Position numbers and translations under genes: made by a program | In this document: positions 28,645 through 37,518 of the stretch, one piece after another | Layout: each line of letters opens with the position of its first letter | Numbering within the stretch: position 1 is the first letter of the stretch | The notes under the pieces: model-generated | What the model was told of the DNA's origin: nothing | The model's input: the letters and a program-made list of their open reading frames with translations, nothing else | Database searches by the model: none | Source of the DNA: Chloroflexia bacterium SDU3-3 | GTDB taxonomy: Bacteria > Chloroflexota > Chloroflexia > Chloroflexales > Roseiflexaceae | Direction: 5' to 3' | DNA: 64,000 nt | Assembly (NCBI GenBank): GCA_009268125.1 | Contig: WBOU01000009.1 | Location: forward strand, 160,195-224,194

Positions 28645-30717
28645 CTATCGTATCCTCCAGATAGTCACGCCGCCCTTGGCGTAGACCTTCTCGTACAGGT
28701 CGGGTAGGCCATCCACCACATCAGGGCGGATGTATTCGGCCCCGCCCGGCGAGGTGTTGCCTGGCCCATCGTAGAGATAGCTGAACCCCGCACGCTTCAG
28801 CGCCTGCACGGCCTCGGGCTGCTCAAGGCTGTGGGCCATGATTGTCTCGTTGACGCCCTGCACCCAAAATTGGAAATCGGGCCGCTCGCCCGCCTCGGTG
28901 CCGTAGGGCGCGGGCTGGACATTGGTGGTGCGGCCAGCCAGGAACGTGATCCACCAGCCGCCATCCGAGCCAGTGTACACGCCGCCGCCGTAGGATGGAA
29001 AGCTATTGACAAAGATCTGCGCGTCCGCCGGGATCTCCTGGCGGATCCAGTCCATCGCCTGCATATCGGCGGGGAAGACCAGCTGATTCTGCGGTGCCAG
29101 GATCTGCTGCTGCCAGGGCAAGCCCCAGCCGATCAGCGCCACGCCCAGCAGCGCGGGCAGGCCCGCCCGCAGCAGCGGCGCACGCACCCGCAGCAGGCCC
29201 AGCGCCAGCTCGGCCCCGTAGGCCAGCGCCGCGCCCGCCAGCGGCATCAGAAACAGATACAGCCCGATCAGCACCGTGAAGCTGGTGATCAGGCCGGTGC
29301 CGGGCAGGTGCAGCAGGTAGGGGTTGGCCGCCAGCCATGTGAGCACCAGCCACCCGGCCAGCAGCAGCGCGCGCCACTGCCGCCGCCAGAGGCACAGCCC
29401 CAGGCCCGCCGCCGCCAGCGCCGCCAGCCACGGCGCCAGGTACAGCCCAAAGGCGTCGCCCACACCAGCGTCGGCGCTGACCGCCGTCGAGAGATAGTAG
29501 CCGCCGATCCGCAGCAGCGCGCCCTCGCGCAGGCGGATGAGCCACGGCAGCGTGGCCAGCACCACAGCCGCGCAGGCCGCCGCTCCAGCCCACACCAGCG
29601 GCAGCAGCCGCGCCAGCCAGGCCCGCCAGGTGTAGCCCGCGCCGCGCTCGTGTAGCCAAGCCGCGCTCAGCGCATAGCACACATATAGCGGCACAAAGCA
29701 CACCGCGAACACCGCGATCCGGTAGTGTGTGACCACAATGCCTGCAGTTGTGAGCGCCGCCAGGGCCACCAGCCGCACCCGCTGGCCCCAGCCCAGCTGC
29801 GGCTGGTCAAGCGTCGCATCCACCAGCCACATCCACGCCACCATGATCGCCACCAGCTCGGTCTGCCCGCCCAGCTGGGTGTAGCGGCCCCAGTTCACAT
29901 AGTAGGCGGGCATGGTGCTCACAAAGACGGTCAGCAGCGCGCCGAACAGCGCCGCGCCCTCGTGGCGCAGCAGCCGCCGCGTCAGCAGGTAGACCATGGG
30001 CGCGGCCAGAGCGCTCTCGACCTGGCCCACCGCGATCACGCTGGCGGTGGCGGGGATGCCGCCCAGCATGGACAGGAAGGCCGCCAGGCTATGGAAGCCG
30101 TAGTGGTAGGTGAAGGTTTTTAGCGGCGCGTAGGGCTGCCACGAGGAAAACAGGCCGCCGTGATCGATCAGCAGCTGCGTGATGATGGTATGGTGGTACG
30201 AGTCGCCAAACATCGCCACCGGCAGGTCGCGGCTCACATACAGCCGCAGCAGCAGCGCCAGCGCGGTGATGCCCAGCAGCGCCACGTGTGAGGGCGAGAG
30301 CGCAAGGCCAGCCCGCGCGTGCCCGCGCCGCCGCCACCAGCCCCAGGCCACCACCCCAGCGCAGAGCGCCAGCAGCGCCCATGCCAGCGCCGCACCCCAG
30401 CGCAGCCCCACCAAGCTCGACCCGAGCAGCAGCAGCGGGATAGCCGAGCAGCTCACCCCGACGGCCAGCACCCAGCGCTCGGCGGGGGCCAGCGGGCCAA
30501 ACCACAGCAGCTCCAGCAGGGCCATGCCGGGCAGCAGGAGCAGCGCCGCAGCCGCCACGATCGGCAGCAGCGCGGGGATCACGTTCCGCGCCCCCCACAG
30601 CACCATGGCTGGGGCGAGCGCGCACACGATAGCGAAGATCAGCGCTGCGGCAAGGGCTTGCTTCCACCAGCTATACCTAACCAAAGATGGCTCATCTCGC
30701 AAGGCCACTTGCTCCAT
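28645..30717 (-). CDS. Large polytopic membrane protein, GT-C-like (paralogue of the 15174-17198 product)
   Basis: The 690-residue product has ten or more hydrophobic helices. The loop 'LPVAMFGDSYHHTIITQLLIDHGG' (acidic D followed by HH) and 'FTYHYGFHSLAAFLSML', then 'AYYVNWGRYTQLGGQTEL', match the equivalent motifs of the membrane protein at 15174-17198. The C-terminal soluble domain begins near residue 555. It resembles GT-C membrane transferases, with an early-loop acidic residue as a possible catalytic base. The start has a moderate site upstream. The carbamoyltransferase and GT4 follow in the same direction, so the three probably act in one glycan pathway. The donor is unknown. Confidence 0.75.
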   Translation of the reverse strand: MEQVALRDEPSLVRYSWWKQALAAALIFAIVCALAPAMVLWGARNVIPALLPIVAAAALLLLPGMALLELLWFGPLAPAERWVLAVGVSCSAIPLLLLGSSLVGLRWGAALAWALLALCAGVVAWGWWRRRGHARAGLALSPSHVALLGITALALLLRLYVSRDLPVAMFGDSYHHTIITQLLIDHGGLFSSWQPYAPLKTFTYHYGFHSLAAFLSMLGGIPATASVIAVGQVESALAAPMVYLLTRRLLRHEGAALFGALLTVFVSTMPAYYVNWGRYTQLGGQTELVAIMVAWMWLVDATLDQPQLGWGQRVRLVALAALTTAGIVVTHYRIAVFAVCFVPLYVCYALSAAWLHERGAGYTWRAWLARLLPLVWAGAAACAAVVLATLPWLIRLREGALLRIGGYYLSTAVSADAGVGDAFGLYLAPWLAALAAAGLGLCLWRRQWRALLLAGWLVLTWLAANPYLLHLPGTGLITSFTVLIGLYLFLMPLAGAALAYGAELALGLLRVRAPLLRAGLPALLGVALIGWGLPWQQQILAPQNQLVFPADMQAMDWIRQEIPADAQIFVNSFPSYGGGVYTGSDGGWWITFLAGRTTNVQPAPYGTEAGERPDFQFWVQGVNETIMAHSLEQPEAVQALKRAGFSYLYDGPGNTSPGGAEYIRPDVVDGLPDLYEKVYAKGGVTIWRIR

Positions 30718-30804
30718 ACCAGCCCCTAGCGCTGCAAATCTGTGTGCGAAAGCGCATTATACGAGCGCCAAAAAGGTGTGTCAATCGCAGCTCGGCGCGG
30801 CGAG

Positions 30805-31169: not shown

Positions 31170-31205
31170 AAAGAAGGGCGGCAGGCAGAAAGCTGCCCGC
31201 CGCCC
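31170..31205 (-). terminator. Intrinsic terminator of the NACHT-like/FGE gene
   Basis: GGGCGGCAGGCAG (31176-31188) pairs with 31193-31205 with one mismatch. Read on the minus strand, TTCTTTTTT follows the stem. Confidence 0.8.
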
Positions 31206-31220
31206 AGGTCGCACTCGCGG

Positions 31221-33872
31221 CTAGCCCTCATCCGCCGCCAGCGTGATCAGCGGCAAGCCCAGCACCACGCGGAAGCCCAGGTGGTAGCGCCAGTAGTCCA
31301 CGGGCAGTCGGCTGCGGTAGGTGCAGCGCGCGTGCGTGGGCAGCGATGCGCACGACGAGCCGCGCAGTGTGTACGAGCCAGCCTCGTGGAACGATGCCAG
31401 CGCACCTGGGTAGCTGGCATACTCGCTCATGGTCCACTCCCACACATTGCCAATCATGTCGTGTGCGCCATAGGCGCTCTGCCCAGCAGGGAAGCAGCCC
31501 ACCGGCGCGGTAGTCCACGCGCCGCGGCCCTCGGTGGTGTTGGCCGCACCGGACAGCCAGGCATCGCCCCAAGGGTAGGTGCGCTTGCTGCGCCGCCGCG
31601 CATCCCAGCTGGCCACCTTCTCCCACTCCACCTCCAGCGGCAGTCGCACCTCCATGGTTGCGGGCAGCAGCCCGGTGGCCCGCAGCTTCACCGTGAGCCA
31701 CTGGCAGTAGGCCACCGCATCGCCCCATGTCACACCCACCACCGGCTGCGAGGGGTTGTTGTACGACTGGTCGTACCAGTATTTGGGGCGCGGTTGCGAC
31801 GGCATCTCATCCAAAAAGCGGCCATACTCGCGATTCGTCACCGGGTAGGTGCCGATCGCAAACGCTGGTATGTCCACCCACTGCTGCGGCCCCTCATCTT
31901 CGTAGCCGTCGCGCGTGCCCAGCAGGAAGGCCCCGGCGGGCACCCGCACCAGCGGCGGCAGCATAGTGGCGAAGCGCGGGTCGCCCAGCTGGCCCAGCAG
32001 CATGCCCGCCCGCACCCGCTCGCTCGCCGCCACCTCGCGCATGCGCATGATGTCCTGCAGGCGCTCCTGAAGCTCGGCCAAGATGGCCCGCTCGGGCGTG
32101 CCGATCGACTCGAACTCGATCAGGCATTCGGCAGCCAGCAGCGTATCGCTCACGGCGCGCTCGCTTGAGTGCTGCGCGCTCTCCAGCAGCAGCCGCAGCA
32201 GCTCGCGCGCCGCATACACGCCCGCGCCCAGGGCCAGCTCGCGCACGGCCAGCAGCAGCGTCTCGCGCCAGCGCGGCTCGGCGGCTAGGCTATGGGCGCG
32301 GGTGGGGAAATCCTGCTGCGCGGCCAGCGCGCGGGCGGCCAGGTACTCGCGCAGCGAGCGCCACGGCATGGCGTACTCGCTCGACGACTCGTTGGTGGCC
32401 AGCAGGCCGTGGCGGCACAGCCACTGCAGCAGCTGCGGGATCACGTGCTCCACCGCGCGCCGCCACTCGACGCCCATGTGCATCAAGCTCTCGCGCAGCC
32501 ACGGCTCGACCTCAGGGTAGCGCATGGTGGCTGGCATGTCGCCGCTCAGGTCGGGGCGCAGCTGCAGGGCCAGGGCCAGCGGCTGCAGCAGCGCCAGCCG
32601 CATCTCCAGCCGCGCCAGCTGCTCCACATCCAGCATGCTCGCGAGCGGCGCAATCGCCTCCTCGCTGCGGCGCTGCTCCCAGCGCTCCAGCAGCAGATCG
32701 ATCATGCGCGTGAACACCACCCCGCGCGCGCTGGGCAGCGGCTGGCCCTCGGCCTCGGTGAGCAGACACACCACCGCGCCCAGCGGGTTGCTGGCCATGG
32801 TGCGCAGCCGCTCGTGGGTGCGGATGCTGCTGCAGATCCGCCGCGTGTAGCTTTCCGGCTCGTCAAAGGTGAGCGCGCTCAGCGGGGTGAGCAGCGGGTA
32901 GTAGGCGACGATCAGCGCATCAAGCTGCTCGTTTTCCAATGGGGGCAGGCTGTAGTGGCTGAAGCCAAACAGCGACGCGGTGGAGAGATTGGACAGATGG
33001 CGGCAGGTGAACACATAGCGACTATCGGGGTAGCGGGCCACAAAACGGCTGATCATGGCGGGCAGGTTGCGCCCCCGCTCACCTACCATGATCTCATCCA
33101 GCCCATCGATCATCACCAGGCCCAGCCCTGCGCGCAGCGCCTGCTCGATCGCGGGCAGCGCCGAGGCAAAGCCGTCGTGCTGGAAGGTATACTCGATCAC
33201 ATCCCAGAGGCCCAGCTGCCGTCCCGCCACATCCAGCGCCGCCATGGCGCGCGCGATGTCGTAGGAGTCGAGCACCACGGGGATGGGGGCGCTGTCGAGC
33301 ATGCGCGGGAAGAAGGCCATCTGGCGCTCATCGCCGCTGTGCAGGCCGATGCAGGCCAGGGCCAGCCGCCGGATGGCGATCGTCTTGCCGCCGCCCAGCT
33401 CGGATGCGATCAGAATGCGGGTGTGGTTGTCGGCCAGCAGCCCGGCCAGGGTGGCGGTGGGCATACCAGCGGCCTGCGGCGTAAGATCACGCTCGATATA
33501 GATATCGCTGAGCGGCAGGGCTGGGCCGCGCCACTCGGCGAGGCCGTCGAGCGAGATATAGCCCAGTCGGTCGCCCACGGTGCGCAGATACGCACGCAAC
33601 GTGCTGTTCTGGTGAGCACCCAGCACGATCGTCGCGCTCAGGCCGCGATCCGAGGCGGTATCGCCGGGCTGCTCATCCACATCCGCACCAAGGGAGGCAA
33701 GCTCGGCCTTCACCTGAGCGATCTGCATCCTGGTATCATCCAGCTGATGTCGGATATGCAACGGGGTGAGAGGCCCAAAGTGAGAGCATTGCTCTTCGAG
33801 ATAGGCCACAGTCCGCCGATGGATGGCAAGCCGCGTTTGCAGCGATGAGATTGGATCGACACCAATGGCCAT
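31221..33872 (-). CDS. STAND NTPase (NACHT-like) fused to an FGE-sulfatase domain
   Basis: The 883-residue product has an N-terminal helical hairpin (about 10-65). Next is an NTPase core with a P-loop 'ASELGGGKT' (156-164, first Gly of Walker A replaced by Ser) and Walker B 'GLVMIDGLDEI' (251-261). The sensor-like 'YVFTCRH' is at 287-292. A helical region (about 300-635) follows, where STAND proteins place winged-helix and helical repeats. Residues about 640-875 form a formylglycine-generating-enzyme (sulfatase-modifying factor) domain: 'VRVPAGAFLLGTRDG', 'YPVTNREYGRFL', 'GVTWGDAVAYCQWL', 'RLPLEVEWEKVA', 'GNVWEWTMSEY', 'HLGFRVV'. The cysteines of catalytic FGE are not in the expected positions, so the domain may bind ligand without catalysis. 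Such fusions are typical of conflict or signalling systems. Confidence 0.85.
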   Translation of the reverse strand: MAIGVDPISSLQTRLAIHRRTVAYLEEQCSHFGPLTPLHIRHQLDDTRMQIAQVKAELASLGADVDEQPGDTASDRGLSATIVLGAHQNSTLRAYLRTVGDRLGYISLDGLAEWRGPALPLSDIYIERDLTPQAAGMPTATLAGLLADNHTRILIASELGGGKTIAIRRLALACIGLHSGDERQMAFFPRMLDSAPIPVVLDSYDIARAMAALDVAGRQLGLWDVIEYTFQHDGFASALPAIEQALRAGLGLVMIDGLDEIMVGERGRNLPAMISRFVARYPDSRYVFTCRHLSNLSTASLFGFSHYSLPPLENEQLDALIVAYYPLLTPLSALTFDEPESYTRRICSSIRTHERLRTMASNPLGAVVCLLTEAEGQPLPSARGVVFTRMIDLLLERWEQRRSEEAIAPLASMLDVEQLARLEMRLALLQPLALALQLRPDLSGDMPATMRYPEVEPWLRESLMHMGVEWRRAVEHVIPQLLQWLCRHGLLATNESSSEYAMPWRSLREYLAARALAAQQDFPTRAHSLAAEPRWRETLLLAVRELALGAGVYAARELLRLLLESAQHSSERAVSDTLLAAECLIEFESIGTPERAILAELQERLQDIMRMREVAASERVRAGMLLGQLGDPRFATMLPPLVRVPAGAFLLGTRDGYEDEGPQQWVDIPAFAIGTYPVTNREYGRFLDEMPSQPRPKYWYDQSYNNPSQPVVGVTWGDAVAYCQWLTVKLRATGLLPATMEVRLPLEVEWEKVASWDARRRSKRTYPWGDAWLSGAANTTEGRGAWTTAPVGCFPAGQSAYGAHDMIGNVWEWTMSEYASYPGALASFHEAGSYTLRGSSCASLPTHARCTYRSRLPVDYWRYHLGFRVVLGLPLITLAADEG

Positions 33873-33999
33873 GCGGTATGTATACTCCTGGCACAACAGG
33901 CGCGGGAATACATCGATATCGTTAAAAAGCGCGGATGGCTAGCGAGCATTGCTGCTCACCGCCGGTTCCGCGCATTCGACACAATCATTATGACCCTTG

Positions 34000-34398
34000 T
34001 TAGGCAAATCGTGACATGAGCGGAATAGTAGGTTGTAGGAAAGATGAGACCTCTTGTAGCAGGGCGTCAAGGTTGAACGGCTTGAAGATCACGCGCTGGA
34101 TACCCGCGCGGCGGGCGGCATAGAGCGTAGCGCCCACACCATAGGCGGTCATGGCGATGATCGGGACATCCTCGTGCAGCGGATCGGATCGGAGCTGGCG
34201 GGCAACCTCAAGCCCATCGATACCCGGCAGATTGATATCCATCACGATCAGCGATGGGCGATGGCGATGGGCTTTCTGGACAGCTTCAAGGCCGCTTTCG
34301 GCCTCGATGACACGGCAGCCATTCTTGGTGAGAAGTCGCGTGACGATCTTGCGAATATCGGCGGAATCATCAACTACCAGAACAAGGTTGGTTGTCAT
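34000..34398 (-). CDS. Single-domain response regulator
   Basis: The 132-residue product is a CheY-like receiver: 'NLVLVVDDSADIRKIV' with acidic D10/D11, phospho-acceptor D54 in 'LIVMDINLPGIDG', 'PIIAMTAYG' with the conserved Thr, and Lys in 'VIFKPFNLD'. No output domain follows, so it must act through a partner or as a phosphate sink. The ATG at 34398 is preceded by GAAGG; an upstream in-frame ATG would add an unrelated 25-residue tail. No kinase gene is adjacent. Confidence 0.92.
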   Translation of the reverse strand: MTTNLVLVVDDSADIRKIVTRLLTKNGCRVIEAESGLEAVQKAHRHRPSLIVMDINLPGIDGLEVARQLRSDPLHEDVPIIAMTAYGVGATLYAARRAGIQRVIFKPFNLDALLQEVSSFLQPTIPLMSRFA

Positions 34399-35116
34399 GG
34401 GCGTGCCTTCCCATCTGTATATGCATGCGGGACGAGATCTGGCAGGGTATCGCAACGGGATATATTGTTGCAACTACATTATGTCGTAGAACAGTATAGT
34501 GGATAGGGCGGGCTGAGTCAATGCAATTTTAATGAAATTCTTACAATTTTTTCCTTAAAAGATAAATGCCCGCCTGGGATTAGGCACCCCAAGATAGTCT
34601 ACATGCTGAAACGCCAAAATAATCCTAGCGGTAGCCTAATACCATTTTATTACCACCGGTAATACTTGCCTTGCTAGTATCATTCACGCGCAGAGCCACC
34701 CGTTTAAATAAGTACTTCTCGTCTACTCATGCGGCTGTTAGGGCAGGCAATAGCATGCCTGTTCGTGCTCTTTTTCTTTGCGTGCGCTTGTAGCCACATG
34801 CGTCTGCAAGTGTAGCCAGATTATAAAGCGGAGCATGTTCATCGCGATCGCAAACAGCGAATCAATATCATGCCAATTATGACGATCAGGCCCAGAGATC
34901 GAATCAAACATAAGGTATATAACGCATCGCACAATCATACAACAATCGGACTAGATGCTCCCGCTTATTTTGCAACATATGCGCAAAGAACGATCATAGC
35001 GATCATAATCATCACCCAACGGGCAAGCATGAATCTGCTCCCCAAGCGATGCTTGGAGAGCAGAAATGATGGCCCCATTTCTATGACAGAGCCTATGATC
35101 CTTCCAAAACTGACGA
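34399..35116. other. AT-rich gene-free region of about 720 bp
   Basis: This gap is clearly richer in A and T than the rest of the window. No ribosomal, tRNA or known protein pattern could be read. A 66-residue minus-strand frame at 34738-34938 has a hydrophobic helix but no ribosome-binding site or neighbouring homology that I can see. Small inverted repeats occur (for example TTACC/GGTAA near 34660), none with terminator form. The stretch may be the remnant of a lost or transferred segment. Confidence 0.55.
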
Positions 35117-37213
35117 TCAGTGTGAGATGTGCGCCTTCTTCTGGGCCTCGACGAGGGCGGCCAGCAGGTGGGCAGGCACATCGTCGTAGTGGTCGAAGCG
35201 CTGCGAGAAGTGGCCGCGCCCCTGGGTCATCGAGCGCAGGTCGGTAGCGTAGCGCAGGATCTCGGACAGCGGCACGTGGGCGGTGATGTGGGTGTGGCCA
35301 TTCTCGGGCAGCATGCCCAGCACGCGCCCGCGCCGCGTGGTGATGTCGCCCATGATGTCGCCGGCAAACTGATCGGGGATGTTGATCTCCAGCTGGTAGA
35401 CCGGCTCCAGCAGCGCGGCACCGGCCTTGAGCGCGGCCTGCTTGAAGGCCTCGTGCCCGGCGATCTGGAAGGCGATGTCCTTGCTGTCCACGGGGTGCAT
35501 CTTGCCGTCGAACAGCTCGACCCGCACATCGATCATGGGATTGCCAGTGATCACGCCCTCCTGCATGGCGGCGCGCACGCCCTTTTCAACCGAGGGGATA
35601 AACGAGCGGTCGATCACGCCGCCGACGATGGCGTTGACAAACTCCAGCGGGTCGGCGCGGTTCGGGTCGGTGGGCAGCGGCTCGACGCGGATGGTGACAT
35701 CGGCGAACTGGCCAGCGCCGCCCGACTGCTTCTTGTGGCGGTACTGCGCCTCGGCCTTGCCGCGAATGGCCTCGCGGTAGGCCACCTTGGGCAGCTCGAT
35801 ATCGACATCGACATCGAACTTGTGCTTCATGCGCTCGGCCAAGATCTGCAGGTGCGACTCGCCCAGGCCGGAGAGCAGGGTGCCGCCCTGACTGTCGCGG
35901 CTCAGGGTGATCGAGGGGTCCTCCTCGATCATGTGCTGCAGCGCGACGCCCATCTTGTCTAGATCGTTGCGGGTGTGGGGCTTGATCACGGCGGTGAACT
36001 CGACGGGCGGGAAGGCGATCGGGGCTAGGCGCAGCGGGCGGTCGAGCTGGCAGAGCGTGTCGCCGGTGAGCGCGTCGGGCAGCTTGGTGGCCGCGCCGAT
36101 GTCGCCCGCCACCAGCTCGGTGGTGGGGATCTGCTCTTTGCCGCGCAGCAGTACCAGCTGGCCGATGCGCTCTTCCTTGCCGGTGCGGGCGTTCATCACG
36201 GTGGTGTTGGCGGAGATCTTGCCGCTGTAGACCCGCAGGCACGAGACCTTGCCGTAGCGGTCGGAGATGGTCTTGAAGACCATCGCGCCTAGCGGCTGGG
36301 CGGTGCTGGGGCTGATGGCCACCGGCTTGCCCGTAGCTGGCTCGCTGGCCACGATGCTGACGCGGGCGGCGGAGGGGATGCAGTCGAGGATGCCATCCAG
36401 CAGCTGGGCGGTGCCCACGGCCTGGTCGGCGGCGCCGCACAGCACCGGCACGATCGAGCCGTTGGCGATGCCCGCGCGCAGGCCGCGCTGCAGCTCCTCG
36501 GGGGTGAGCGCGTCGGCCCCACCCTCAAGGTACTTTTCGATCAGGTCGTCGTTGGTGGCGGCGATCTTGTCGATCAGCTTCTCGCGCCACTCCAGCTCTA
36601 GCTCGCGGTGCTCGGCGGGGATGTCGGCGTCGACGAACGAGCCGTCGTGGGCGGGGGCGATCATCCAGGCGCGCTGGCGACGCAGCGAGATAATGCCCTT
36701 CAGCTCGCGCTGCGCGCCGATCGGGATCTGCAGCGGGATGACCGAGGCATCCAGCAGCTGCTGGGCCTGCTCGACGGCGCGGAAGAAGTTGGCGTTCTCG
36801 CGGTCGAGCTTGTTGATGAAGAGGATGCGCGGCACGCCCAGCCGCACGGCCTCGGCCCAGGCGGCCTCGGTGCCGACCTCGACGCCGCCAGCGGCGTCGA
36901 TCACGATCACCGCGCCCTCGACCACGCGCATGGCTGCGGCCACATCGCCTGCGAAGTCGGCGTAGCCGGGCACGTCGATCAGGTTGATCTTGTCGTCTTT
37001 CCACTCGATAGGGGCAACGGAGAGATTGATGGAGAGGTGTCGCTTCTGCTCATCCGGGTCGTAATCGCTGACGGTGTTGGCATCCTCGACTCGTCCAGCG
37101 CGGGGTATAGCCTTGGCGGTGAGCAGCAGCGATTCGAACAGGGTCGTCTTCCCGCATCCGCCATGGCCAAAAAGCCCAACGTTGTGGATACGTTCAGTGC
37201 CATAGGTTCGCAT
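35117..37213 (-). CDS. Elongation factor G-like GTPase (FusA2 type, altered GTPase motifs)
   Basis: The 698-residue product aligns over its whole length with EF-G: GTPase domain, domain II, and domains III to V ending 'GRGHFSQRFDHYDDVP'. G1 is 'GHGGCGKTT' (16-24) where EF-G has AHIDAGKTT. The switch I segment 'EQKRHLSINLS' (55-65) replaces the usual ERGITI. G3 is 'DVPGYADF' (80-87), so the catalytic His of DTPGHVDF is Tyr84. G4 'NKLDREN' is intact. Such EF-G2/FusA2 proteins accompany a normal EF-G elsewhere in the genome and probably have a special role on the ribosome. Tandem ATGs are present; the second (37213) is best spaced from AAGGAGG. An 8-bp hairpin lies in the leader (37285-37305). 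Confidence 0.9.
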   Translation of the reverse strand: MRTYGTERIHNVGLFGHGGCGKTTLFESLLLTAKAIPRAGRVEDANTVSDYDPDEQKRHLSINLSVAPIEWKDDKINLIDVPGYADFAGDVAAAMRVVEGAVIVIDAAGGVEVGTEAAWAEAVRLGVPRILFINKLDRENANFFRAVEQAQQLLDASVIPLQIPIGAQRELKGIISLRRQRAWMIAPAHDGSFVDADIPAEHRELELEWREKLIDKIAATNDDLIEKYLEGGADALTPEELQRGLRAGIANGSIVPVLCGAADQAVGTAQLLDGILDCIPSAARVSIVASEPATGKPVAISPSTAQPLGAMVFKTISDRYGKVSCLRVYSGKISANTTVMNARTGKEERIGQLVLLRGKEQIPTTELVAGDIGAATKLPDALTGDTLCQLDRPLRLAPIAFPPVEFTAVIKPHTRNDLDKMGVALQHMIEEDPSITLSRDSQGGTLLSGLGESHLQILAERMKHKFDVDVDIELPKVAYREAIRGKAEAQYRHKKQSGGAGQFADVTIRVEPLPTDPNRADPLEFVNAIVGGVIDRSFIPSVEKGVRAAMQEGVITGNPMIDVRVELFDGKMHPVDSKDIAFQIAGHEAFKQAALKAGAALLEPVYQLEINIPDQFAGDIMGDITTRRGRVLGMLPENGHTHITAHVPLSEILRYATDLRSMTQGRGHFSQRFDHYDDVPAHLLAALVEAQKKAHISH

Positions 37214-37518
37214 CATGTCCTCCTTGACGACGCGAAGTCGCCCACGTAGAGCCAACGGGCAGTCCCAGAGGAGTCGAACGGACCCGAGCAGCGGCCCTGC
37301 TCGGCTCCCGGCGGTTTGTCACGTTGGTTCCAATACCGCTCTCCACTGTTCCGTGGGGATTAAGGGTATGTTATCGAAGTTTGCGGGCGGGGTCAATAGC
37401 CAAAAAAAGGCGCTGTGTTGTGGTTTCAACACCATGGGGTGGCGGTGGGTTGCGGAAGCAACACAGGCGGCGGCGGATGCACAGATTGCGCGTTCGGGCA
37501 AGTTGCCCTGTCTATGAG
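37214..37518. other. Leader region of the EF-G-like gene, no gene found
   Basis: CCGAGCAG (37285-37292) pairs with CTGCTCGG (37298-37305) in the 5' leader of the EF-G-like mRNA. A run of A7 at 37403-37409 and scattered Ts are present, but no promoter could be assigned with confidence. A T-arm-like 'GTTCGACTC' on the minus strand does not fold into a tRNA. Confidence 0.5.

Follow-up and report, generated by a model that had tools for sequence, protein, structure and literature searches.

Proteins in which a STAND NTPase is joined to a C-terminal FGE domain (STAND-FGE, or STAND-FGS, proteins) have been described previously, and receiver domains that operate without histidine kinases were noted in related conflict systems (PMC8195603). 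For the STAND-CLec antigen sensors, recruitment of effectors by way of adaptor domains has been proposed (PMC10907252). The pattern by which the effector-associated domains (EADs) were defined is recurrence within one genome on core and effector proteins, sometimes encoded by adjacent genes (PMC7159879). Indirect sensing of phage is possible for a bacterial NLR relative, as bNACHT25 shows, which perhaps guards a host process (PMC12169576). The locus described here lies in a 64,000 nt stretch of DNA from Chloroflexia bacterium SDU3-3, termed the window, and positions given without a contig or locus handle refer to it. Its 883-aa protein is a variant of the known STAND-FGS kind; what is new is an apparently unnamed N-terminal adaptor and a receiver partner encoded by the preceding gene.

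Domains of the STAND-FGE protein

The 883-aa open reading frame, read from an ATG at 31221-33872 on the minus strand, is judged to be real, and an in-frame TTG offers a possible N-terminal extension to position 33896. Features of the locus, with the evidence for each, are as follows.

31176..31205, minus strand: intrinsic terminator after the STAND-FGE gene (13-pair stem with 11 GC pairs, T-run)
31221..33872, minus strand: hairpin-NACHT-FGE protein, 883 aa (ORF, and orthologues of 35-45% identity in the same family)
31263..31373, minus strand: segment equivalent to the variable region (VR) of diversity-generating retroelement (DGR) targets, aa 834-870 (mean pairwise identity 72%)
31263..31958, minus strand: FGE/C-type-lectin-fold domain, aa 639-870 (Pfam PF03781, E=1.6e-46; VIA-align)
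32022..32837, minus strand: helical arm, aa 346-617 (model secondary structure; inside the aligned NLR region)
32838..33428, minus strand: predicted NACHT-clade ATPase core, aa 149-345 (aa 84-630 match NLRC4/NOD2/NLRP3 in VIA-align at Z about 17; Foldseek match to NLRC4 at E 6e-11)
33090..33113, minus strand: Walker B MIDGLDEI (canonical DGLDE), aa 254-261 (orthologue alignment)
33381..33404, minus strand: Walker A SELGGGKT, aa 157-164 (orthologue alignment)
33429..33656, minus strand: linker region before the ATPase, aa 73-148 (alignment)
33657..33872, minus strand: two-helix hairpin, candidate EAD-like adaptor domain, aa 1-72 (model helices 7-35 and 38-60; recurrence in the genome and the order)
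34000..34398, minus strand: single-domain CheY-like receiver, co-directional, 127 nt upstream of the STAND-FGE gene (Pfam Response_reg, E=3e-29)
34493..34521, minus strand: promoter-like site upstream of the receiver gene, TTGACT-17-TATACT (consensus scan 10/12, which alone is no proof of function)
35117-37255, minus strand: EF-G-like gene upstream of the receiver/STAND pair (neighbourhood in common with G006 and, without the receiver, G004)

The AlphaFold2 model of the protein (mean pLDDT 68.7, pTM 0.61) displays two N-terminal helices, then the ATPase with its helical arm, and then the C-terminal lectin-type domain. The domain order is thus the hairpin (aa 1-72), a NACHT/STAND ATPase (aa ~84-630) and the FGE/C-type-lectin-fold domain (aa 639-870), and it bears out the original prediction of a helical N-terminal hairpin (pLDDT of this block mostly 77-86) fused to a STAND and an FGE domain. 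A STAND NTPase, a C-terminal FGE/FGS domain and an N-terminal adaptor, the parts of the STAND-FGS conflict proteins, are all present.

A search with NACHT and FGE-sulfatase profiles, which had been suggested as a check, gave a divided result. FGE-sulfatase is the sole Pfam match of the protein at E up to 1, and Pfam NACHT does not match it. The NACHT model does find relatives: the G006 orthologue weakly (E=4e-5, below the cut-off) and some more distant proteins above the cut-off. In structure comparison, aa 84-630 of the model superpose on NLRC4, NOD2 and NLRP3 in VIA-align, with concordant Foldseek results, and the sequence carries both a P-loop and a DGLDE-type Walker B, as do NACHT-clade STAND NTPases. 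NACHT is therefore the best label for the predicted ATPase, although the Pfam model misses this protein. A structure lacking an NTPase fold had been named in advance as evidence against the prediction; the model predicts an NTPase fold.

Ser does replace the first Gly of the P-loop, as had been pointed out (S157-ELGG-GKT). The change is private to this protein: the nine orthologues whose sequences span this position all have Gly, and none departs from GK[ST]. Walker B is intact only here; the orthologues display DGLND, DDMDD, DDIDG, DGVAG, DGVTP and DGIEP. To judge from these motifs, nucleotide binding appears to be kept more clearly than hydrolysis in the orthologue family, and ATP hydrolysis may be unimportant in it, since even the closest orthologues have a degenerate Walker B.

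In the C-terminal part, aa 632-874 align in VIA-align with ToxD (Z 23.4), EgtB (18.9), PvdO (17.9), TvpA (17.1) and human FGE (16.6), and Foldseek agrees. The positions of the human C336/C341 pair are both occupied by other residues or deleted in five aligned orthologue tails, so that the earlier observation of missing FGE cysteines holds. Among the orthologues, mean pairwise identity is lowest in the helical arm (36%) and the NTPase region (39%), higher in the FGE core (64%) and highest, at 72%, in aa 834-870, the VR-equivalent, which is thus the most conserved part of the orthologue family. The FGE domain is likely a non-catalytic, ligand-binding sensor, as the original prediction had suggested. 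Its ligand would be expected to be fixed across the orthologue family, because the VR-equivalent is the most conserved part and neither a DGR template nor a DGR context was found. A conserved binding segment means that an FGE/lectin-fold sensor is not necessarily a hypermutated antigen receptor, and that the ligand should be findable.

Two enzymatic or receptor roles that the FGE fold brings to mind fit these data poorly. In one, the domain would be a hypervariable receptor diversified by a DGR, and both the architecture, which is like that of DGR target proteins (PMC10907252), and the fold match to TvpA speak for it. The segment that should vary is however the one that is conserved, and a search of the genome for a template repeat found no template-like copy of the VR-equivalent; its single DNA match (41 bp, 83%) lies inside an unrelated amylase-like gene. 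No DGR-type reverse transcriptase was recognised either, as no DGR context was seen for the genome's only RVT_1 match, a protein of 820 aa. Diversification by a DGR is thus strongly disfavoured and most improbable. The 820-aa protein itself (G000:C23:55230-55625, L138:7991-10453) has a weak reverse transcriptase match and is possibly a defence-type RT. In the other role, the domain would be a catalytic enzyme of the FGE or EgtB type fused to the STAND domain. The tail of the domain (31263-31373) is in fact closer to Chloracidobacterium EgtB than to FGE, and aligns best with it (LRGGSCAT...RxTYR, E 1.6e-7), but this match does not reach beyond the C-terminal part (83 bits with NCBIfam egtB, whose cut-off is 360), and the same NCBIfam search did not detect the EgtB N-terminal iron-binding domain in the 883-aa protein. 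With the cysteine pair missing and no full-length EgtB match, a catalytic FGE or EgtB enzyme was rejected as most improbable. A sulfatase operon with an intact FGE site, a setting that would have spoken against the original prediction, is likewise not in evidence: no sulfatase is among the annotated neighbours in the window, and the only Sulfatase-family match of the genome is on another contig, which also speaks against a catalytic FGE.

The receiver gene and the history of the locus

The STAND-FGE gene was originally thought to stand alone with its own terminator. The terminator is present, but the gene is not alone, as a conserved receiver gene lies directly upstream on the same strand. No promoter or terminator is predicted between the two genes. 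The receiver is found directly upstream in all four hairpin-bearing orthologues (the own genome, G006, G010 and G013) and in none of the six complete hairpin-less ones. The spacing varies, with a gap of about 165 nt in G006, an overlap of 8 nt in G010 and an overlap of about a dozen nt in G013. EF-G is located upstream of the locus in the own genome, in G006 and in G004, the last without a receiver. The locus is thus stable and not an island. Elsewhere in the window, a full 12/12 sigma-70 consensus, TTGACA-17-TATAAT, is found at 30756-30784 (minus strand), upstream of a DUF6541 membrane-protein gene at 28645-30717.

Ten of the genomes sampled from the family carry orthologues, at about 35-45% identity; one of these orthologues (L034) is from a MAG labelled Roseiflexus, which makes a host among the Roseiflexaceae probable. 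Across the order, STAND-FGE proteins of more remote relationship are frequent. The six complete hairpin-less orthologues, together with a truncated seventh, form one supported clade. Receiver and hairpin were therefore probably lost together in a single event, possibly by one deletion of contiguous DNA.

The N-terminal hairpin and its copies on other proteins

With a profile built only from the four orthologous hairpins, copies of the hairpin are found in about nine other genes of the own genome (E 6e-14 to 5e-6). The carriers are a NERD protein, a CHAT protease-like protein in which the His/Cys pair looks intact, three long STAND-repeat proteins on contig C17 and several small proteins. Of 80 genomes of the order, 43 have matches to a broader profile, made of the orthologous hairpins and the own-genome copies, and in a sample of 301 genomes of the phylum the matches stay inside the order, save for one genome of the same class. 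Fusion partners of the hairpin are CHAT, TIR, TIR+FGE, FGE, PNP_UDP, iSTAND, vWA, NERD and TPR-CHAT. Genomes with a hairpin-bearing orthologue have 10 (own genome, G000), 9 (G006), 10 (G010) and 14 (G013) matches; those with a hairpin-less orthologue have 0-1.

A generic coiled coil as the source of these matches was ruled out, as reversed and shuffled proteins gave none against 37 for the real ones. The hairpin has no model in Pfam; no Pfam EAD is among the matches up to E=10 for 11 hairpins, and the Pfam EAD1 model matches neither the own genome nor its controls. A search of the open-access literature for the hairpin in Roseiflexus or Chloroflexota found no report.

Both of two neighbouring genes bear the hairpin at L191 (where the genes overlap by 4 nt), L192 and L210, though this is not the case at the STAND-FGE locus itself. 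The adjacent copies are 67%, 49% and 34% identical, and in one of the three pairs the neighbour is the closest relative. Thus a small non-enzymatic domain is shared by a core protein and effectors of one genome and also recurs on adjacent genes, the features that mark EADs. By this sequence pattern the hairpin behaves like an effector-associated adaptor. The original prediction described the hairpin but saw no effector in the N-terminal part, a view that passes over the adaptor-like character of the hairpin and its recurrence on CHAT, TIR, NERD and other proteins.

Some arrangements of hairpin genes should be noted in their own right. Three tandem genes at G000:C17:47949-61391 (L153, L154) encode proteins of some 1440-1540 aa that all combine an N-terminal hairpin with a STAND ATPase and repeats, and contig C17 has further hairpin genes besides these. 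At L191:6616-8978 and L192:627-3192, a gene for a small protein with a C-terminal hairpin is followed by a hairpin-FGE gene, apparently as partners. A fusion of the hairpin to an inactive STAND domain (iSTAND) at L208:658-1734 in G013 suggests an overlap with ternary conflict systems.

Possible roles and comparison with known systems

Its adaptor-like hairpin, found also on effector-type proteins, and the pairing of its gene with that of a CheY-like regulator make the STAND-FGE protein a probable signalling hub and not a sensor-effector acting on its own. The original view of a self-contained sensor-effector is at odds with this pairing, and with a hairpin that fits the pattern of an adaptor recruiting effectors encoded elsewhere. 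From the domain make-up, the predicted NLR fold, the gene pairing, the hairpin network, the missing cysteines and the conserved sensor surface, a two-gene module can be pictured, in which a CheY-like receiver precedes an NLR-like switch that has a fixed ligand and recruits hairpin-tagged effectors in trans; the balance tips slightly in favour of this scheme. The non-catalytic lectin-fold domain would bind a conserved, fixed ligand or partner, and this binding, possibly gated by the receiver, would lead the NACHT ATPase to load ATP and to oligomerise in the manner of NLRC4 and NLRP3. The N-terminal hairpins, once clustered, would bind the same hairpin on effectors encoded elsewhere and recruit them by homotypic contact, the proteins at G000:C2:298580 (CHAT protease-like) and C17:34042 (NERD) being candidates.

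Several points stand against the hub. No hairpin effector gene adjoins the STAND-FGE gene, the mean pLDDT of the model is only 68.7, Walker B is degenerate in the orthologues, receiver and hairpin may have been lost in a single event, and adjacent hairpins are not in every case closest relatives.

What such a hub would serve, defence or a function of the host itself, is a separate matter. Antiphage defence by the 883-aa protein is possible. Here the protein would be an Avs/bNACHT-like receptor whose FGE domain recognises a phage product and brings about abortive cell death via hairpin-recruited effectors, a reading given about one chance in three. The predicted NLR fold is in agreement with it, as are the TIR, CHAT and PN-superfamily domains of the hairpin partners, which are found in PADLOC defence models, and a part in sensing invaders has been suggested for STAND-FGE proteins (PMC8195603, PMC10907252). 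The protein itself, however, matches 0 families of the PADLOC protein models at E up to 1; no defence-type genes are among the neighbours examined, the position beside EF-G is kept in three genomes, and the sensor surface is conserved, not diversifying. The alternative is an endogenous switch, in which receiver and STAND-FGE protein form a host module for signalling or stress that senses a metabolite or host protein and is unrelated to phage. The conserved pairing with a single-domain receiver, the conserved ligand segment and an inheritance that looks vertical within the family point that way, but conflict systems are the more usual setting for a hairpin-tagged network of TIR, CHAT and PN-type proteins. 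In addition, guarding of a host process, which has been proposed for bNACHT25 (PMC12169576), is open to a conserved sensor too; given such indirect sensing, a conserved sensor is compatible with defence. An endogenous switch is given a little under one chance in three.

Returning to the receiver-gated hub, a wider form of it can be put forward tentatively, at somewhat under even chances. In this form the hairpin would be an unnamed homotypic adaptor, so far seen in a single bacterial class, probably Chloroflexia, that wires up to about a dozen tagged effectors (TIR, CHAT, nucleosidase-like and nuclease-like) to a receiver-gated STAND-FGE hub with a fixed ligand site, and one Roseiflexus-type clade would have lost the network along with the receiver and hairpin of the hub. 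If true, bacterial NLR-type systems would gain a CARD-like adaptor family, and a STAND protein coupled to a two-component-style receiver would connect phosphorelay-type signalling with NLR-like assembly in filamentous bacteria. The effector candidates of the hairpin network are named and can be tested.

Among known systems, the STAND NTPase-FGS conflict proteins (Kaur et al. 2021, PMC8195603, Fig. 2I) are similar in their N-terminal adaptor or effector, central STAND NTPase and C-terminal FGE/FGS domain, and in having adaptor copies on effectors elsewhere, interchangeable EADs being described there. The protein described here differs in that its adaptor has no Pfam model, its sensor is conserved and non-DGR, and a receiver gene lies ahead of it. 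The DGR-diversified STAND-CLec sensors of Thiohalocapsa and other multicellular bacteria (PMC10907252) share the STAND domain with a C-terminal CLec/FGE domain, whereas here no DGR was detected and conservation peaks in the VR-equivalent. Like the hairpin, EAD1-EAD10 (Kaur et al. 2020, PMC7159879) are small non-enzymatic domains that recur within a genome on core proteins and effectors, the genes in some cases being neighbours; the hairpin is distinct as a two-helix unit without a Pfam EAD match, found here only in the order and in one other genome of the class.

The animal NLRs NLRC4, NOD2 and NLRP3 and the bacterial bNACHT and Avs proteins have in common with this protein the predicted NACHT fold and a C-terminal sensor. 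Here the sensor is of the FGE/lectin fold instead of LRR or TPR repeats, no effector is fused, and the ATPase differs in its Walker A Ser and in the weak Walker B of the orthologues. Finally, ToxD, EgtB, PvdO and the formylglycine-generating enzyme have the same FGE/CLec fold as the C-terminal domain (Z 16.6 to 23.4), and the STAND-FGE protein is set apart from them by the absence of the FGE cysteine pair, by the lack of a detected EgtB N-terminal domain and by its fusion to a NACHT ATPase.
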